From: Leptotrichia wadei
GTDB taxonomy: Bacteria > Fusobacteriota > Fusobacteriia > Fusobacteriales > Leptotrichiaceae
Direction: 5' to 3'
Assembly: GCF_007990445.1 (NCBI RefSeq)
Contig: NZ_AP019841.1
Location: 186,001-250,000 of the forward strand
DNA length: 64,000 nt
Position 1 is the stretch's first letter, and each line of letters begins with the position of its first letter. The translations under genes and the position numbers were made by a program. Below, piece after piece: positions 38,779-48,084 of this stretch. Below the pieces are notes generated by a model. That model worked only from the letters and a program-made list of their open reading frames with translations, was not told where the DNA came from and ran no database searches.

Positions 38779-38988
38779 ATGATTTGGATAATTGGAGGAA
38801 CAAAGGATTCTAGAATTATTTTAGATGAGGTTATGAAAGCCAGGGAAGATGACATTGTTGTGAGTACGGCTACTGAATATGGCGGGAAATTACTTGAGGA
38901 TGTGGCTGAAAATAAACGGATACATATAATTTCAGAAAGATTGGGTGTATTACAAATTGAAAATTTAATTTTGGAAAAAAATATTGAT
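38779..38988 (+). CDS. cobK: cobK exon 1
   Basis: Encodes the N-terminal nucleotide-binding fold (MIWIIGGTKDSRIILDEV .. LILEKNID). It ends in ATTGAT; the first intron base makes a TAA stop at 38989-38991. The ATG has the RBS GGAAAGG at 38764-38770. Confidence 0.85.
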
Positions 38989-41900
38989 TAAAATTATGGC
39001 TGGAAATTTAAGAAAGGCGATATAGTCAGCATATATAGAAATATGTATGCATAGGCAGTTTTAAAACTGTCTAATACTGCTTGAATTGCTGGAAAACCCT
39101 AAAGCCAATTTGACTACAACATAATATCTTTTTTTGAACAAAATTTAGATATAAGTGTGAATGTTGCGAAAGCGGAAAAAATAAATTGGATGGCATAAAG
39201 ATATAAAGTTTATCGTGGTTAAAGCCTAAGTGCTAAAATTAAATAGAATAATGGGCAATCAGCAGCTAAGACTGAAAAGTAAAGTTCAACGACTATCCCT
39301 TTAGGGAGTACACCAAAGCTGGTGGAAGCGGGCAGACCCGAGCAGGTGAGGCTGTGGGATAAGATATAGTCTGTGCTTAATAGAGATATTAAGAAGTTCA
39401 GAAATATTGCAATTTATTAATATAAGAAACTGATTTTAGTAATATGTAGTGAACTCTATTTAAAATTAAACTGCTAAAAATCATATAAATTTAGGGTTTG
39501 AGTAAAATAGTCATAACTTTGAGTTCAGTTTTAAAGCAGTTTTACTATAATTACAGTATTTGAGAGAACTGCATAGGAAGTAGCGAGCCTATGTGAACGA
39601 TAACTTCTAAAAATAAAATAAGTTTTAGAAGTTCAGTTAATTATTGATGCAAGTCATCCGTATGCACAAAATATTAGTAATATTGTCATTTCAATGGTAA
39701 GTTATTTAAATGAGCGGAATATTGCGGAGAAAAAGATAAAATATGTAAGATTTGAAAGAAAAATATTGGATTATGGAACTGAAAATGTATTTCAGTTTAA
39801 AAGTTTGAAGGAGCTAATTGCATTTTTGAATAAATTTGAAAATAAAAATATATTGAGTACATTGGGATCAAATTCCTTAGTAGAGTTAAGAGGTATAGAA
39901 GAAAAGAATAATTTATTTATTAGGATACTGCCTACAACGGTTTCTATACAAAATGCAGAAAAACTTGGATATTTGCCTAAAAATATAATTGCTATGCAAG
40001 GACCTTTTTCTAAAGAAATGAATGTTGCAATATTGGAAAATTACAAAATTGATTAAAACTACAACTGTAAAGCATATAATTGAAACTAAAAATTGCAAAT
40101 TAGTTTGTAAAGTATAGTCAGCATATATAGAAATATGTATGCATAGGCGGTTTTAAAACTGCCTAATACTGCTTGAATTGCTGGAAAACCCTAAAGCTGG
40201 TTTAACGACAACATAATGTCTTGTTTAGGATAAAATAAATGTGAAGATATAAGTGTGATCGTTGCGAAAGCGGAAAAAATAAACCAGATGGCATAAAAAA
40301 TAAAAATGGTTAAAACCTAAGTGCTAAAAGAAAATTTATCTTAAAAACAATGGGCAATCAGCAGCCAAGACCGCAAGGTAAGGTTCAACGACTATCCCTT
40401 TAAGGGAGTACACCAAAGCTGGTGGAAGCGGGCAGGCCCAAACAGGTAAAGCTGTGGGATAAGATATAGTCTGTGCTTAATAGAAATATTAAGAAGTTCA
40501 AAAATATCTTAAAAAATATAAGATGTTAATAGAACTGCATAAGAAGCAGCGAACTTGTGTGAACATAAACTCTTTAAAAAAATAAGAGATTTCAGTATCT
40601 TATTACAAAGGAAAGTGGAGAAACAGGTGGAGAACTTCAAAAAGTTCAAGCATGTCAGGAATGTGGAGTTGGTATTTTAACAATAAAACGTCCAGTATTG
40701 GATTATGGAACAATTTTTTATTAAATAGTGCAAAAATACTTGCGACTTTAGTCGTGAGACATGTACTCGTAGGGTATGAATTGCACGAAAATTTTAGTAA
40801 GCATATAGGGAAACTTGTATGTAGACACGGAGCAAAACCGTGCAACAAAGAAACTGAACTACTGGGAACTCTTAAAGCTAGTATAACCACAACATAATAC
40901 CTAAGTGAGAATACGGTATAGGTGTGAAGGTGGCGAAAGCAGAAAAAATATACTAGATGGTGTAAGGTTAAATCCTAAACATTATGATAATAGACAATCA
41001 GCAGCTAAGCCTGAAAAGGAAAGTTCAACGACTATCCCTCGTGAGGGGAGTACAATACAAGCGATTGGTATTGGAAGTGGTTTCGCCTAAGTCTTTGAAA
41101 TAGGATATGGATAAGATATAGTCTGTGCTTGTTAGAGATAACAAGAAGTTCAAGGCTAATCTCCTTAATTTATTAAGGAGTGTATATGCCATGAGAACTG
41201 CATAAGTAGTAGCGTACTTATGTGAACGACGCTTCCCACTGTTGTGGGGTTTTAAAAACTTTAAAAATATTTAAAAAATATTACTTTTTAATAGATAAAA
41301 TGTAGAATATACGGGATAATATCTCTGATGAAAAGGAGGTGATTATATATGTATTTAACATTAAAACAACAGGTAAAACATCTTAGTAAAAAAGAGTTTA
41401 GGAATTTAAAATATTTGTGCCATATAGCATGAAGCTGTATATAATATTAGACAGTATTATTTTAATAAGAAAAAGTATTTAAGTTATAATGAAAACTATA
41501 AAAAATTAAATTCTAATATGGCTCAACAAATTCTAAAAGAAGCAGATGGAAGTTTCAAATCATTTTTTGGGCTTTTAAAACTTGCTAAGAATGGTCAATA
41601 TAATTTTAAAGATATAAAATTACCTAAATATCTTGCTAAAGATGGATTTACAACTCTTGTTATAGGTTTTGTAAGATTAAAAGATGATATTCTGATAGTT
41701 CCTTATTCAAATTCATTTAAGAAAACTCATCAGGAAGTTAAAATTAAGCTGCCACCAGTATTAAAAGGCAAGAAGATAAAAGAGATTAGAATAATACCAA
41801 AACAACATTCTAGGTACTTTGAAATTCAATATACTTATGAAGTAGAGGAAGTTCAAAGGGAATTAAATAAAGAAAATGCACTAGGAATTGATTTAGGTAT

Positions 41901-42660
41901 AAACAATCTTTGCACTTGTGTTACAAATACTGGAGCATCATTCATAATAGATGGCAGAAAATTAAAATCAATAAATCAATATTATAATAAGATAAATGCA
42001 AAATTACAAAGTATAAAAGATAAGCAAAAGATTAAGCGGACAACATTAAGACAAAAGCGAATAGCTAGAAAGAGAAATAATCGCATAAATGATTATCTTT
42101 CAAAAGCAGCAAGAATAATTATAAATTATTGTCTTAATAATGATATAGGAAAACTAGTTCTAGGATGTAACGAAGATTTTCAAAGAAATTTATAAATAAT
42201 CAAAACTTTGTAAATATACCATATGGAAAATTAAGAGATAAATTAATATATCTATGTAAACTATATGGAATAGAATTTAAACTACAAGAAGAAAGTTATA
42301 CATCAAAAGCAAGTTTCTTTGATGGAGATGAAATTCCAATATATGATAAAGAAAATCAAAAAGAATATAAATTCAGTGGAAAAAGAATAAAAAGAGGACT
42401 ATATCAAACAAGTAAAGGCTATCAATTAAATGCAGATTGTAACGGAGCATTAAACATATTAAGGAAAAGTAAAGTTGTGGATTTAAGCGTCCTATACAAT
42501 AGAGGTGAGCTGAACACGCCTAAAAGAATAAGGGTAGTGTAAAGCTATCAAACTTCTTAGAAAATTTTTGAATATTTTTAAAGATTTTGGAACCCTGCGA
42601 TTTTAGTCGTGGGAGGTTCAGACGATTAAAGAATTAATTGAATATGTAGTGAAATCATAA
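38779..42660 (+). CDS. cobK: Precorrin-6A/cobalt-precorrin-6A reductase gene split into four exons by group I intron elements
   Basis: Exons 38779-38988, 39637-40053, 40596-40721 and 42622-42660 add up to 792 bases and, joined, give a single open frame of 263 codons. The product has every CobK/CbiJ block in order: IIGGTKDSRII, VVSTATEYGG, LIIDASHPYAQNISN (across junction 1), ILSTLGSNSL, RILPTTV, IAMQGPFSKEMN, YKIDYLITKESGETGGELQKVQACQECGVGILTIKRPVLDYG (across junction 2) and IFYTIKELIEYVVKS (across junction 3). The enzyme reduces the corrin ring in cobalamin synthesis using NADPH. No other cob gene is adjacent. If splicing occurs the protein is complete; without it the gene is dead at codon 71. 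YigZ follows 19 bases after the stop. Confidence 0.85.
38989..39636 (+). mobile_element. Group I intron element 1 in cobK (ORF-less IStron derivative)
   Basis: A 648 bp element in sense orientation. The 5' exon ends TTGAT and the element ends AGTTCAG, so the U before and the G at the end fit group I splice sites. Core motifs: Q CAATCAGCAGCTAAG at 39256, R GTTCAACGACTA at 39284-39295 and S AAGATATAGTC at 39361-39371; GACTA in R pairs with TAGTC in S to form P7, and TTGCTG at 39086-39091 pairs with CAGCA of Q to form P4. A CATAGG/CCTATG hairpin (39573-39594) and an 11 bp terminal stem (ACTTCTAAAA with TTTTAGAAGT) follow. No ORF, so splicing would be RNA-driven and mobility would need proteins in trans. 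Confidence 0.85.
39468..39542. repeat. Palindromic element nested in intron element 1
   Basis: AAACTGCT at 39468-39475 and AGCAGTTT at 39535-39542 are perfect inverted ends. The interior (AAATTTAGGGTTTGAGTAAA) is the inverse of the 38327-38387 element. It lies after the S element and before the 3' hairpin, i.e. in a peripheral loop of the ribozyme. Element 2 lacks it, and this explains much of the size difference (648 versus 542 bp). Confidence 0.65.
39637..40053 (+). CDS. cobK: cobK exon 2
   Basis: Begins LIIDASHPYAQNISNIVISMVSYLN; the conserved DASHPYA motif lies in its first codons and is missed if translation is taken from the ATG at 39694. It ends in ENYKID, again at TTGAT, followed by an intron-encoded TAA. 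Confidence 0.85.
40054..40595 (+). mobile_element. Group I intron element 2 in cobK (ORF-less IStron derivative)
   Basis: A 542 bp element closely related to element 1. The 5' flank is TTGAT and the end is TTTCAG. Core motifs: P-side AATTGCTGGAAAA near 40196, Q CAATCAGCAGCCAAG at 40355-40369, R GTTCAACGACTA at 40383-40394, S AAGATATAGTC at 40461-40471, with P7 formed by GACTA/TAGTC. The 5' part (TATAGTCAGCATATATAGAAATATG) is identical to element 1. No ORF is present. Confidence 0.85.
40596..40721 (+). CDS. cobK: cobK exon 3
   Basis: Encodes YLITKESGETGGELQKVQACQECGVGILTIKRPVLDYGTIFY (42 codons) with no start codon of its own. It ends in TTTAT. Too short for ordinary gene callers. The final 13 codons (exon 4, 42622-42660) are TIKELIEYVVKS and TAA. 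Confidence 0.85.
40722..42621 (+). mobile_element. IStron 3 in cobK: group I intron plus decayed tnpB
   Basis: A 1900 bp element in sense orientation. The 5' flank is TTTAT and the end is GGTTCAG. The intron core lies in the first 500 bases: Q CAATCAGCAGCTAAG at 40995, R GTTCAACGACTA at 41023-41034, S AAGATATAGTC at 41113-41123, and a CATAAG/CTTATG hairpin near 41202-41223. A CCCAC-TGTT-GTGGG hairpin (about 41228-41241) separates the core from tnpB. IS605-type hairpins stand near both ends (CTTTAGTCGTGAG at 40747; TTTTAGTCGTGGGAGG near the right end). It is nearly identical to IStron 4 at 45493-47429. No tnpA is present. Confidence 0.88.
41349..42542 (+). pseudogene. tnpB: Decayed tnpB in IStron 3
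   Basis: Compared with the intact copy at 46103-47350, about 17 bases are missing after codon 26, giving a frameshift and a TGA at 41430-41432. A further 24 bases are missing in frame, and about 13 are missing near 42190, giving a second frameshift with a TAA at 42193-42195. The RuvC-I region (ALGIDLGINNLCTCV) and the C-terminal region (LNADCNGALNIL, in another frame) can still be read. The RNA parts of the element remain intact, so it could still splice. Confidence 0.9.
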
Positions 42661-45492: not shown

Positions 45493-48084
45493 TAAATAGT
45501 GCAAGAATACTCGCAACTTTAGTCGTGAGATAAATTGCACGAAAATTTTAGTAAGCATATAGGGAAACTTGTATGTAGACACGGAGCAAAACCGTGCAAC
45601 GAAGAAACTGAATTGCTGGGAACTCTTAAAGCTAGTATAACCACAACATAATACCTTCGTTCAAATATGGTATAAGTGTGAAGGTAGCGAAAGCAGAAAA
45701 AATATACTAGATGGTGCAAGGTTAAATCCTAAACATTATGATAATAGACAATCAGCAGCTAATCCTGAAAAGGAAAGTTCAACGACTATCCCTCGTGAGG
45801 GGAGTACAATACAAGCGATTGGTATTGGAAGTGGTTTCGCCTAAGGTGTTGAGATACACTATGGATAAGATATAGTCTGTGCTTGTTAGAGATAACAAGA
45901 AGTTCAAGGCTAATCTCCTTAATTTATTAAGGAGTATATATGCCATGAGAACTGCATAAGTAGTAGCGAACTTATGTGAACGACGCTTCCCACTGTTGTG
46001 GGGTTTTAAAAACTTTAAAAATATTTAAAAAATATTACTTTTTAATAGATAAAATGTAGAATATACGGTATAATATCTCTGATGAAAAGGAGGTGATTAT
46101 ATATGTATTTAACATTAAAACAACAAGTAAAACATCTTAGTAAAAAGGAGTTTAGGAATTTAAAATATTTATCTCATATAGCCAAGAACTTAACTAATGA
46201 AGCTATATATAATGTTAGACAACACTATTTTCAAAATAAAAAGTATTTAAGTTATAACGAAAACTATAAAATGCTTAAAAATAGTGAAAATTACAAGAAA
46301 TTAAATTCTAATATGGCTCAACAAATTCTAAAAGAAGTAGACGGAAGTTTTAAATCATTTTTTGGACTTTTAAAACTTGCTAAAAACGGTCAATATGATA
46401 ATAAAAAAATAAAATTACCTAAATATTTTGCTAAAGATGGTTTTACAACTCTTGTTATAGGTTTTGTAAGATTAAAAGATGATATGCTGATAGTTCCTTA
46501 TTCAAATTCGTTTAAGAAAACTCATCAGGAAGTTAAAATTAAGCTACCACCAGTATTAAAAGGCAAGAAAATAAAAGAGATTAGAATAATACCAAAACAA
46601 CATTCTAGGTACTTTGAAATTCAATACATTTATGAGGTAGAAGAAGTTCAAAGGGAATTAAATGAAAACAATGCACTAGGAATTGATTTAGGTATAGATA
46701 ATCTTTGTACTTGTGTAACTAATAATGGAGCATCATTCATAATAGATGGTAGAAAATTAAAATCAATAAATCAATACTATAACAAGACAAATGCAAAATT
46801 GCAAAGCATTAAAGATAAGCAAAAGATAGAGCATATAACATTAAGGCAAAAGAGAATAGCTAGAAAGAGAAATAATCGTATAGAAGATTATCTTTCAAAA
46901 GTAGCAAGAATAATTGTAAATTATTGTCTTAATAATGATATAGGAAAACTAGTTCTAGGATATAATGAAGATTTTCAAAGAAATTCAAATATAGGAAGTA
47001 TAAATAATCAAAACTTTGTAAACATACCATATGGAAAATTAAGAGATAAATTAATATATCTATGTAAACTATATGGAATAGAATTTAAACTGCAAGAAGA
47101 GAGTTATACATCAAAAGCAAGTTTCTTTGATGGAGATATAATTTCAGTATACGATAAAGAAAATCCGCAAGAATATATATTCAGTGGAAAAAGAATAAAA
47201 AGAGGACTATATCAAACAAGTGCAGGTAAACTCATAAATGCGGATTGTAATGGAGCATTAAATATTTTAGGGAAAAGTAAAGTTGTGGACTTAAGTGTCC
47301 TATACAATAGAGGTGAGCTGAACACACCTAAAAGAATAAGGGTAGTGTAAAGCTATCAAACTTCTTAGAAAATTTTTGAATATTTTTAAAGATTTTAGAA
47401 CCCTGTGACTTTAGTCGTGGGAGGTTCAGGAGAGAAATTGTAAAAGAACCAGTAAATATGTCAAACATTAAAGATAATAAGAGTTTAAATCCGTTTTCGA
47501 CTTTTAGATATATAAAGGAACTTGATGGATTTTCAAAATTTTTCTGTCTTATAATTTTTTTATCTGGAATTGGGATTTATTCTTATGCGAGCGCGTTAAA
47601 TTATTTTTTTAAATTTTACGAAAAGGTTTCGGCAGATACAATCGGAACTTTTGTAATGTGTTCATCACTTTTGGCATTTTTAGGGACGGCATTTTTTCTA
47701 GAAAAGTTATTAAAGAGATTTAAAGAAAAAATTATTCATAAAGTTATGATTTTTACTGGTATAATATTGATGTCATTTATATTTTTTAGAGTAAAGTCAG
47801 GAACGACGCCATATTTTATAATGGCTGCTTATACAATGACCTATGAAATAGTACGTTCTCTTGGAAATACGATTATTGCTAGAAGATATGTTGAAAATCA
47901 AGGTAAAATTCTAGGAGTAGTGTCTGCAGCAGATTCGCTTGGAAATGCTGTTGGTTCTTTTTTATCTGGGCATTTACTGGCATTTAATCCATTTTTGCCA
48001 TTTATTGCGAATATTGGAATAATGGCTGTTGTACTAATTTTAATCAAAAATTTTAGTCGTGTTTTTTTGATAAATTCTGATTGA
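44963..48084 (+). CDS. Major facilitator superfamily transporter gene split by an IStron
   Basis: Exons 44963-45492 and 47430-48084 total 1185 bases and, joined at TTTAT|GAGAGA, give one open frame of 394 aa, the normal MFS length. Exon 1 holds about six helices with the MFS loop motif GALADRFGMKRIFVLMPFFYG and RIVAGFVSGGTFAVAFGYVSQLSEKEEKAKNIA. Exon 2 holds the second half (FCLIIFLSGIGIYSYASALNYFFKFYEKVSADTIGTFVM .. QGKILGVVSAADSLGNAVGSFLSGHLL). The substrate is unknown; drug/metabolite efflux is typical. ATG 44963 is preferred over 44954 because AAGGAG ends at 44953. Unspliced, the protein stops at 45497, in the element. Confidence 0.85.
45493..47429 (+). mobile_element. IStron 4: group I intron with intact tnpB, inserted in the MFS gene
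   Basis: A 1937 bp element in sense orientation. The 5' flank is TTTAT and the end GGTTCAG. Intron core: Q CAATCAGCAGC at 45749, R GTTCAACGACTA at 45777-45788, S AAGATATAGTC at 45867-45877, P7 by GACTA/TAGTC. A CATAAG/CTTATG hairpin follows (45954-45975), then a CCCAC/GTGGG hairpin, an internal promoter (TATAAT at 46069-46074) and tnpB. The right end carries the imperfect hairpin around TTTAGTCGTGGG. Known IStrons, such as those of Clostridioides difficile, have this architecture: intron core first, transposase genes second, 3' splice site at the far end. There is no tnpA, so a Y1 transposase would have to act in trans. Confidence 0.9.
46103..47350 (+). CDS. tnpB: TnpB RNA-guided nuclease of IStron 4 (IS1341-type, no zinc finger)
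   Basis: 415 aa. RuvC-I is ALGIDLGIDNLCTC (catalytic D), RuvC-II is LVLGYNEDFQRN (catalytic E), and RuvC-III is NADCNGALNIL (catalytic D), so the nuclease triad is intact. Between II and III the usual CxxC..CxxC zinc ribbon is missing; instead it reads EESYTSKASFFDGDIISVYD..GKRIKRGLYQTSAGK, like the TnpB group with EEYTSKxSxxDG. The N terminus (MYLTLKQQVKHLSKKEFRNLKYLSHIAKNLTNEAIYNVRQHYF) is the WED-like part. TnpB cuts DNA next to its target-adjacent motif using an RNA from the element's 3' end. A strong RBS AAGGAGGTG precedes it. Confidence 0.93.
   Translation: MYLTLKQQVKHLSKKEFRNLKYLSHIAKNLTNEAIYNVRQHYFQNKKYLSYNENYKMLKNSENYKKLNSNMAQQILKEVDGSFKSFFGLLKLAKNGQYDNKKIKLPKYFAKDGFTTLVIGFVRLKDDMLIVPYSNSFKKTHQEVKIKLPPVLKGKKIKEIRIIPKQHSRYFEIQYIYEVEEVQRELNENNALGIDLGIDNLCTCVTNNGASFIIDGRKLKSINQYYNKTNAKLQSIKDKQKIEHITLRQKRIARKRNNRIEDYLSKVARIIVNYCLNNDIGKLVLGYNEDFQRNSNIGSINNQNFVNIPYGKLRDKLIYLCKLYGIEFKLQEESYTSKASFFDGDIISVYDKENPQEYIFSGKRIKRGLYQTSAGKLINADCNGALNILGKSKVVDLSVLYNRGELNTPKRIRVV
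47250..47449 (+). ncRNA. Predicted omega/reRNA of TnpB at the right end of IStron 4
   Basis: In IS200/IS605 elements the guide RNA overlaps the end of tnpB and the right end of the element, and its guide is the flanking host sequence. Here the scaffold would run through AAACTTCTTAGAA and the TTTAGTCGTGGG hairpin to GGTTCAG, with the guide starting at GAGAGAAATTGTAAAAGAAC (47430 on). The target-adjacent motif would be TTTAT. The 5' limit is a guess. No direct evidence of expression. Confidence 0.5.
47430..48084 (+). CDS. MFS transporter exon 2
   Basis: Starts with the last base of the split ATG codon, then REIVKEPVNMSNIKDNKSLN and the C-terminal six helices. The ATG at 47458 lies in the cytoplasmic loop and would give only half a transporter. 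Confidence 0.85.

Follow-up and report, generated by a model that had tools for sequence, protein, structure and literature searches.

Introduction

Group A IStrons, as set out in the available text of the survey by Tourasse (2014, PMC4227781), have a self-splicing group I intron core of class IA2 with P7.1 and P7.2, an IS200/IS605 tnpB inside and subterminal palindromes at both ends. They are inserted 3' of TTGAT, ATTAT or TTTAT, have TCAG as their 3' end and leave no target duplication. One of them, LbISt1 of Leptotrichia buccalis, was reported there as a single copy of 1760 bp. The same text describes the BcISt1 IStrons of emetic Bacillus cereus, whose ORFs were lost while the ribozyme and the 3' stem persisted, with vertical inheritance at orthologous sites. 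Three group I introns in one gene, with exon skipping, were described in orf142 of phage Twort (Landthaler and Shub 1999, as summarized in the available part of PMC11878797).

We analysed a window of 64,000 nucleotides from Leptotrichia wadei (NZ_AP019841.1, positions 186,001 to 250,000), in which cobK is interrupted by three elements. The host is an oral bacterium. On their sequences, all three belong to the group I introns of the group A IStron type. As far as the available descriptions go, they resemble group A IStrons in their TTGAT or TTTAT targets, TCAG end, P7.1 and P7.2 hairpins, 3' stem-loop and lack of target duplication, and element 3 also has an IS200/IS605 tnpB in the same place (broken) and both end sequences. 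Unlike these IStrons, introns 1 and 2 have neither tnpB nor mobile ends, three elements occupy one gene, and two of them are common to three species. Introns 1 and 2 are like the ORF-less BcISt1 in that the ORF was lost, the ribozyme and 3' stem were kept and inheritance was at orthologous sites; however, the BcISt1 described belongs to group B (IS607) and to closely related strains, whereas the cobK introns belong to group A, are found in three species and have also lost the mobile ends. In Twort, too, a single protein gene has three group I introns, but it is a phage gene, and no IStron tie was seen for its introns in the text available, while cobK is a bacterial biosynthetic gene. The kind of element is already known; what is unusual is the presence of two apparently immobilised, inherited IStron introns together with a third.

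Structure of the interrupted cobK gene

The features are given below in window positions.

38779..38988, + strand: cobK exon 1, 210 nt, 70 codons; 3' end ATT GAT, giving the TTGAT target
38989..39636, + strand: intron 1, IStron-derived group I intron, 648 nt, without tnpB and without the end sequences of its mobile relatives
39025..39029, + strand: intron 1 internal guide GTCAG, read from sequence, able to pair with TTGAT of exon 1 (P1)
39366..39371, + strand: intron 1 P7 3' strand ATAGTC, pairing with an upstream GACTAT
about 39443..39552, strand not given: nested repeat of high copy number, in the periphery of intron 1
39637..40053, + strand: cobK exon 2, 417 nt, 139 codons; 3' end ATT GAT, giving the TTGAT target
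40054..40595, + strand: intron 2, IStron-derived group I intron, 542 nt, without tnpB and without the end sequences of its mobile relatives
40117..40121, + strand: intron 2 internal guide GTCAG, read from sequence, able to pair with TTGAT of exon 2 (P1)
40596..40721, + strand: cobK exon 3, 126 nt, 42 codons; 3' end TTT TAT, giving the TTTAT target
40722..42621, + strand: intron 3, nearly whole group A IStron, 1900 nt
40739..40758, + strand: left-end hairpin sequence of element 3, CTTGCGACTTTAGTCGTGAG, a left end common to 15/15 TTTAT-type copies
40797..40801, + strand: intron 3 internal guide GTAAG, read from sequence, able to pair with TTTAT of exon 3 (P1)
41349..42542, + strand: broken tnpB (RNA-guided endonuclease TnpB family) in intron 3, frame lost at at least two places
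42595..42613, + strand: right-end hairpin sequence of element 3, CTGCGATTTTAGTCGTGGG, a right end common to 15/15 TTTAT-type copies
42622..42660, + strand: cobK exon 4, 39 nt, 12 codons and the stop

When 38989-39636, 40054-40595 and 40722-42621 were taken out, an open CobK of 263 residues was obtained (792 nt including the stop), which matched PF02571 (CbiJ/CobK) over residues 2-260 (E 7.4e-62, 209.4 bits, cut-off 28.6) and, weakly in sequence, the solved structures 5c4r and 4x7g (E about 2e-4). This bears out the initial annotation, made from the sequence alone, that cobK carries three group I introns and still reads as one 263-codon gene, and the alignment to CobK/CbiJ that it had proposed is a whole-length match. 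Its remark that total exon length is divisible by three holds for each exon alone (4/4), with all three introns at phase 0; since all exons are multiples of three, exon skipping would likewise stay in frame. All three elements that it listed are present, with the correction that element 3 is an IStron whose tnpB is broken and that element 1 contains a nested repeat; because of this repeat, which is missing from intron 1 of the two other intron-bearing species, cobK has received four insertions in all.

Introns 1, 2 and 3 follow TTGAT, TTGAT and TTTAT, respectively, and each starts with TAA, which is the first codon met on reading in from the exon, and finishes with TCAG (3/3). The coding sequence has three TTGAT sites, two of which are now occupied. 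An uninterrupted cobK was found in 10 species of the genus, and in a codon alignment the three junctions map within their continuous coding sequence, so the gene structure is not due to chance; the empty sites of these relatives also indicate that no target was duplicated. The junctions had been said to be placed to the base; for introns 1 and 2, repeated letters leave the borders uncertain by 1 and 2 nt, respectively. The spliced product is identical either way, and the borders chosen agree with the TAA...TCAG borders of other element copies. A second intact cobK elsewhere, which according to the same annotation would, together with a lack of spliced transcript here, point to a dead gene, was looked for in this genome and none was found.

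Selection on the exons

Among the three intron-bearing species, exon dN/dS was 0.18-0.22 (bootstrap upper limits 0.28-0.37; dS 0.32-0.49), and the joined exons had no stop or frameshift in any of them. In six pairs of intact relatives dN/dS was 0.06-0.12, about two to three times lower than in the split genes, so constraint on the split cobK may be relaxed. For the lineage of this genome alone, the codon-position test was not significant (p 0.14) and the synonymous share was high (12/24, p 0.002). Six matches to TP-methylase, free of stops, were also found in this genome; some of them, not all, are probably B12 genes. We take cobK as a putatively working gene, predicted to encode the precorrin-6A reductase of B12 synthesis.

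A covarying group I core

We drew the pair model from intron 2, a choice favouring the model. Trees and pair counts were restricted to the core, which begins at the guide and extends as far as the P9 hairpin, because the nested repeat disturbed whole-intron alignment, and domain 9 was folded sequence by sequence only. The shared core comprised 79 modelled pairs, including P7.1 and P7.2, in 26 introns, with 94.8% of 2054 cells paired and two-sided changes at 39 pairs. None of 500 shuffles was as high on four of five measures, while on the fifth, further pair types, the value of 65 did not exceed the shuffles (mean 68.4). This set holds 12 of the 15 TTTAT copies; L049, L053 and L061 lacked the anchor motif and were left out. 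In the six cobK cores (introns 1 and 2 of three species) all 474 of 474 pair cells were standard and 10 pairs were changed on both sides, slid controls being 31.6-39.5% paired; again, no shuffle out of 500 was as high on four of five measures, and further pair types were no higher than in the shuffles.

A guide GUCAG or GUCAA accompanied the TTGAT target in 14/14 introns (6 cobK, 8 mobile), and GUAAG accompanied TTTAT in 14/15 copies, the remaining copy being 5'-deleted. An Rfam search, run at the gathering score and with E values of up to 1, detected no group I intron at cobK. The same search missed mobile copies and the likely LbISt1, so its result at cobK is uninformative, and covariation on our own alignments was used instead. 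The likely LbISt1 is L175 of genome G001, a copy of 1755 bp and the sole match there, which very probably corresponds to the element of L. buccalis as reported in the excerpt of the survey. The class name IA2 was taken from the part of that survey available (PMC4227781).

Introns 1 and 2 occur in three species

Of 13 genomes of the genus, 3 have introns 1 and 2 at identical cobK positions; they are from three species that form one supported clade (100/99). A tnpB match was found in none of these six introns (532-648 nt) and in 8/8 fetched mobile copies of the TTGAT type; those copies were chosen by their TTGAT motif, from which their 8/8 TTGAT follows. The right-end sequence was present in 8/8 of them and the left-end one in 7/8 (L175 diverged), and the six cobK introns, short stray matches aside, had at most the final 9-11 nt. 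As they are without tnpB and without the mobile palindromic ends, introns 1 and 2 were filed as IStron-derived introns, not IStrons, and they have apparently lost mobility. It was the end-sequence comparison alone that told the cobK introns from the mobile copies; a simple scan for hairpins close to the element ends did not. Several cobK introns also allow other short hairpins, possible substitutes for the mobile ends, to be drawn close to their termini, so immobility is not proved.

The group I identity of introns 1 and 2 and their retention through splicing are well supported, since they occupy the same positions in three species, all modelled core pairs are kept, the exons are under purifying selection and no second cobK was found.

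Intron 3 belongs to a TTTAT-type family

This genome has 15 near full-length copies of the TTTAT type, intron 3 among them, all with a TTTAT target and all sense-oriented in genes or at a gene start (15/15). One copy splits the only dnaB found in this genome; a further DnaB_C match was RadA. Given this sense placement and the copy within dnaB, the family very probably splices in vivo. If it is the sole dnaB, the split gene is a natural test of the IStron splicing efficiency required in vivo. A 2024 study reportedly dealt with a conflict between IStron splicing and guide RNA.

None of the 12 remaining genomes of the genus had element 3 at this cobK site. In its core one P4 pair is mismatched (A.C), as is also the case in the dnaB copy; otherwise the core pairs as its sister copies do. 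Left unspliced, intron 3 would bring an immediate stop after codon 251 and a protein of 251 residues, and since only the last 12 residues would be lost, the case for its splicing is weaker.

Proposed origin and alternative explanations

We consider it highly probable that a working cobK needs the self-splicing of three group A IStron-derived group I introns. The guide of each would pair with the pentanucleotide closing its 5' exon (GUCAG with UUGAU, GUAAG with UUUAU), guanosine would attack after the U of the target and the exons would then be joined, while the in-frame UAA opening each intron would halt ribosomes before the ribozyme. Introns 1 and 2 would have arrived in an ancestor of the three species and then lost tnpB and the shared mobile ends; they would now be resident, retained because cobK is unreadable without their splicing. 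Intron 3 would be a later IStron insertion, confined to this species, and its tnpB would be decaying.

That cobK is instead dying, B12 synthesis being no longer needed, insertions tolerated and the open exons a remnant, would fit the raised dN/dS, the four insertions and the 12 of 33 genomes of the family without a cobK match (some of them incomplete). We hold it to be very improbable, because dN/dS is clearly below 1 at the dS observed, the joined exons are clean in three species, the TP-methylase genes, some of them likely for B12, are free of stops and every modelled core pair is kept. It is less likely than not, yet more probable than a dying gene, that introns 1 and 2 splice and intron 3 does not or need not, acting as a stop that shortens CobK by 12 residues. 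The TAA right after codon 251, the broken tnpB, the P4 mismatch and the restriction to this genome would agree with this; against it, the core otherwise pairs like its sisters, one of which splits the only dnaB found despite its own P4 mismatch, and the 12-codon exon 4 is still open and similar to that of the relatives.

The origin of introns 1 and 2 is more evenly balanced, and the odds are about even that they were two separate mobile TTGAT IStrons, each stripped independently later. TTGAT IStrons occur in at least 3 of the 13 genomes, and the intron 2 core is as close to the mobile copy L170 (0.90) as to intron 1 (0.90), but in the tree a clade of the six cobK introns excludes the 8 mobile copies (support 0.973), both introns lack tnpB and the same end sequences, and in G007 the two introns are similar at their 5' ends. 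A local duplication is not claimed, because the tree supports introns 1 and 2 as sisters and pairwise identity does not. It is improbable that an intron no longer mobile as DNA was copied to a second cobK TTGAT site through RNA, by GUCAG-guided reverse splicing, reverse transcription and recombination; if true, an IStron would thereby have reverted to a pure group I intron that is mobile as RNA.

Returning to three self-splicing introns in a working gene, the description of three independent insertions is doubtful for introns 1 and 2, which group together and are shared by three species, and only element 3 is clearly separate. Selection through splicing, also proposed in the initial annotation, can be upheld for elements 1 and 2 and is not shown for element 3, with its 251-residue product and mismatched P4. 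Three elements in one short gene, called very unusual there, are indeed unusual, but sense insertion is the rule among the TTTAT-type copies of this genome. cobK seems to document, in nature, how a transposon was pared down to a resident intron within a bacterial protein-coding gene: what served DNA mobility is gone, what serves RNA splicing has been maintained by compensatory changes, and dependence of the host gene on its introns apparently predates the split of the three species. The passage from selfish element to fixed intron becomes testable in one small gene, with mobile cousins in the same genus.

Occurrence elsewhere

In literature searches whose coverage excluded most subscription papers, no report of a precorrin-6 gene with a group I intron was found; among the matches listed, no IStron title from 2015 on named Leptotrichia or cobK, and only the 2014 survey, in its available part, was relevant to Leptotrichia introns. 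An IS605 with TnpA lies at C1:371 kb; it has different end hairpins and lacks the P7 motif searched, and is not claimed as the mover of the IStrons. A comparison of TnpB with plasmids gave 7 records of 66-74% identity, none from Leptotrichia. When named genomes were scanned with CobK exon 2, no Leptotrichia was among the 80 loci retained, records of near relatives having possibly been excluded, and the best of these loci were from Cetobacterium, with 37-43% identity.

Structure of the split cobK gene

We looked at the architecture of cobK, the B12 gene coding for precorrin-6A reductase (CobK/CbiJ), which is divided in the window as follows.

38779-42660, + strand: cobK, split by three insertions
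38989-39636, + strand: intron 1, 648 nt
40054-40595, + strand: intron 2, 542 nt
40722-42621, + strand: intron 3 (element 3), 1900 nt

When the three insertions are removed, cobK is 792 nt long, that is 263 codons and a stop, and the protein read from the joined exons has a PF02571 (CbiJ/CobK) match spanning residues 2-260 (E 7.4e-62) and weak matches to the solved structures 5c4r and 4x7g. Since all four exon lengths are divisible by three, every insertion lies at phase 0; each of them opens with TAA, an in-frame stop placed directly at the junction. The coding sequence is continuous across the junction positions in 10 species of the genus with an uninterrupted cobK. The initial annotation had described one 263-codon gene carrying three group I intron elements, and had named a second intact cobK elsewhere, together with no spliced transcript from this one, as the finding that would overturn this. 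The genome holding the window (G000; 2.40 Mb, 4 contigs, rated 100% complete) yielded no further cobK. The description proved real, with better support for introns 1 and 2 than it had stated.

Selection on the exons was estimated in the three species with a split cobK. Their exon dN/dS ranged from 0.184 to 0.219 (bootstrap limits 0.116-0.366), against 0.059-0.124 for six pairs of intact relatives, therefore the split cobK is under purifying selection, weaker than in its relatives. On the G000 lineage alone, 12 of 24 polarised changes were synonymous versus an expected share of 0.22 (p 0.002), and the codon-position test was not significant (p 0.14). As an unspliced cobK would stop at codon 70, such constraint on the exons would not be expected unless introns 1 and 2 splice. 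The same argument is weak for intron 3, because RNA that retains it still encodes 251 of the 263 residues; this part of the initial description is thus real but weaker.

The three insertions are related to IStrons

The pentamers ending the 5' exons (targets) of introns 1, 2 and 3 are TTGAT, TTGAT and TTTAT, and all three insertions end in TCAG. These borders are those reported for group A IStrons, which are described as chimeric elements combining a group IA2 intron with an IS200/IS605 element (PMC4227781). Element 3 has both the left and the right end common to its family and contains a tnpB (NF040570, PF01385) broken at two or more places. G000 has 15 near full-length copies of this family, element 3 among them; all are preceded by TTTAT, and 12 have an open tnpB (414-415 codons). 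Introns 1 and 2 belong to the TTGAT-type family, and no strong match to them elsewhere in G000 was detected among the 40 of 120 candidates scored. Across 13 genomes of the genus, intron-2-type matches of at least 290 bits outside cobK occurred in G010 (6), G001 (1) and G012 (1), and all eight were fetched. TTGAT precedes 8/8 of these mobile copies, although this motif itself served to place the border; every copy has a tnpB match, with an open 369-codon stretch in three. The single G001 copy very probably corresponds to LbISt1, the element published for L. buccalis. G010 also had the highest number of intron-2-like match rows among the 13 genomes; these 52 rows include pieces of one copy.

Ribozyme core and guide

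Core helices P2 to P9, with P7 as a pseudoknot, were written from intron 2, hence favouring this intron, and then counted on 26 introns. Standard pairs filled 94.8% of 2054 cells and two-sided changes were found at 39 of the 79 core pairs; on four of five measures none of 500 shuffles scored as high, while the fifth, the number of further pair types, was not above shuffles. In each TTTAT copy 6-9 cells are left unpaired; some of these are in P8, most fall outside the central helices, and misalignment may account for them. Among the six cobK introns (introns 1 and 2 of three species), 474/474 cells pair and 10 pairs are changed on both sides, the pair-type measure again not exceeding shuffles. 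P7 is invariant in the alignment and therefore uninformative on covariation. Rfam gave no match on the cobK introns, nor on the likely LbISt1.

The guide, the intron-internal sequence able to pair with the target (P1), goes with the target sequence across cobK and mobile copies. It is GUCAG in five of the six TTGAT-target cobK introns (GUCAA in intron 1 of G007) and in 8/8 mobile TTGAT copies, and GUAAG in 14 of the 15 TTTAT-target copies, the remaining one being without that part.

TTTAT-type IStrons in other genes

All 15 TTTAT copies are sense-oriented and located inside a gene or at a gene start. This bias is given without a p-value because the strand preference of IS200/IS605 could contribute. 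The 14 copies outside cobK have a Pfam match on at least one flank, weak for one (L055). They include the following.

G000 C1:689151-691883 (L057, L177, L178): IStron with open tnpB, splitting dnaB
G000 C1:82519-84462 (L060): splits cbiN, another cobalt/B12 gene
Window 45493-47429 (L050): second IStron of the window, splitting an MFS transporter gene
Window 46103-47350: open TnpB of L050, 415 aa

Matches to PF03796 (1-131 and 134-255) lie on opposite sides of the copy in dnaB, as do matches to PF02547 (2-262 and 265-322) in queA. Parts of mfd were found on both sides of another copy (L051), and a further host is an arginase-family gene. L049 splits the apparent ATG start codon of a methyltransferase gene, and L053 is found just upstream of a start codon. 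Part of the ribozyme is deleted in a single copy (L061), and this copy is inserted two codons ahead of its gene's stop, where a splicing failure would cost almost nothing. Since the replicative helicase is essential and no second dnaB was found in G000, it is very probable that the dnaB copy is spliced out, unless two states were mixed in the assembly; the remaining dnaB hit was RadA. The eight TTGAT-type copies of relatives likewise have open sense frames on both flanks, at phase 0 in 7/8. Two MITE-like remnants of about 310 bp (G000 C1:880949-881260 and C1:1984443-1984754) have neither ribozyme core nor tnpB; their similarity to the TTTAT IStron is confined to its left and right ends and a short stretch in the middle.

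History and mobility of introns 1 and 2

G007 and G012 carry introns 1 and 2 at identical cobK positions, without intron 3, and form one clade with G000 in the CobK tree (100/99). A cobK match was present in 21 of 33 genomes of the family, 18 uninterrupted and these three split. Most simply, the ancestor of the three-species clade would have gained both introns and its descendants kept them.

All six cobK introns lack tnpB. The mobile right end was found in 8/8 TTGAT-type and 15/15 TTTAT-type copies, and the left end in 7/8 (L175 being diverged) and 15/15; the six cobK introns match these end sequences in the final 9-11 nt and in scattered short pieces, and nowhere else. Given current knowledge of IS200/IS605 transposition, elements lacking such ends should not move, and introns 1 and 2 are accordingly expected to be immobile. 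Other short hairpins are, however, possible near the ends of these introns, and a simple hairpin scan there did not distinguish the introns from mobile copies. The six cobK introns form a clade separate from the mobile copies (0.973) but pairwise identity gives no such separation, so one intron may have been copied from the other, or the two may have inserted separately.

Introns 1 and 2 are IStron-derived introns, apparently immobilised and shared by three species, and a younger IStron, element 3, has since entered the gene that carries them. Precedents, each for a single feature, are reported for ORF-less IStrons inherited vertically and for IStrons inserted within genes (118 of the 202 sites of a 2014 survey; both PMC4227781), and for a phage gene with three group I introns (cited in PMC11878797).

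Nested inside intron 1 of G000 is a further insertion (window 39443-39552), a roughly 105-bp repeat that recurs at 39 or more other places. The repeat can fold into a long hairpin, and one of its copies precedes the only TnpA gene detected (C1:371121) by about 200 bp.
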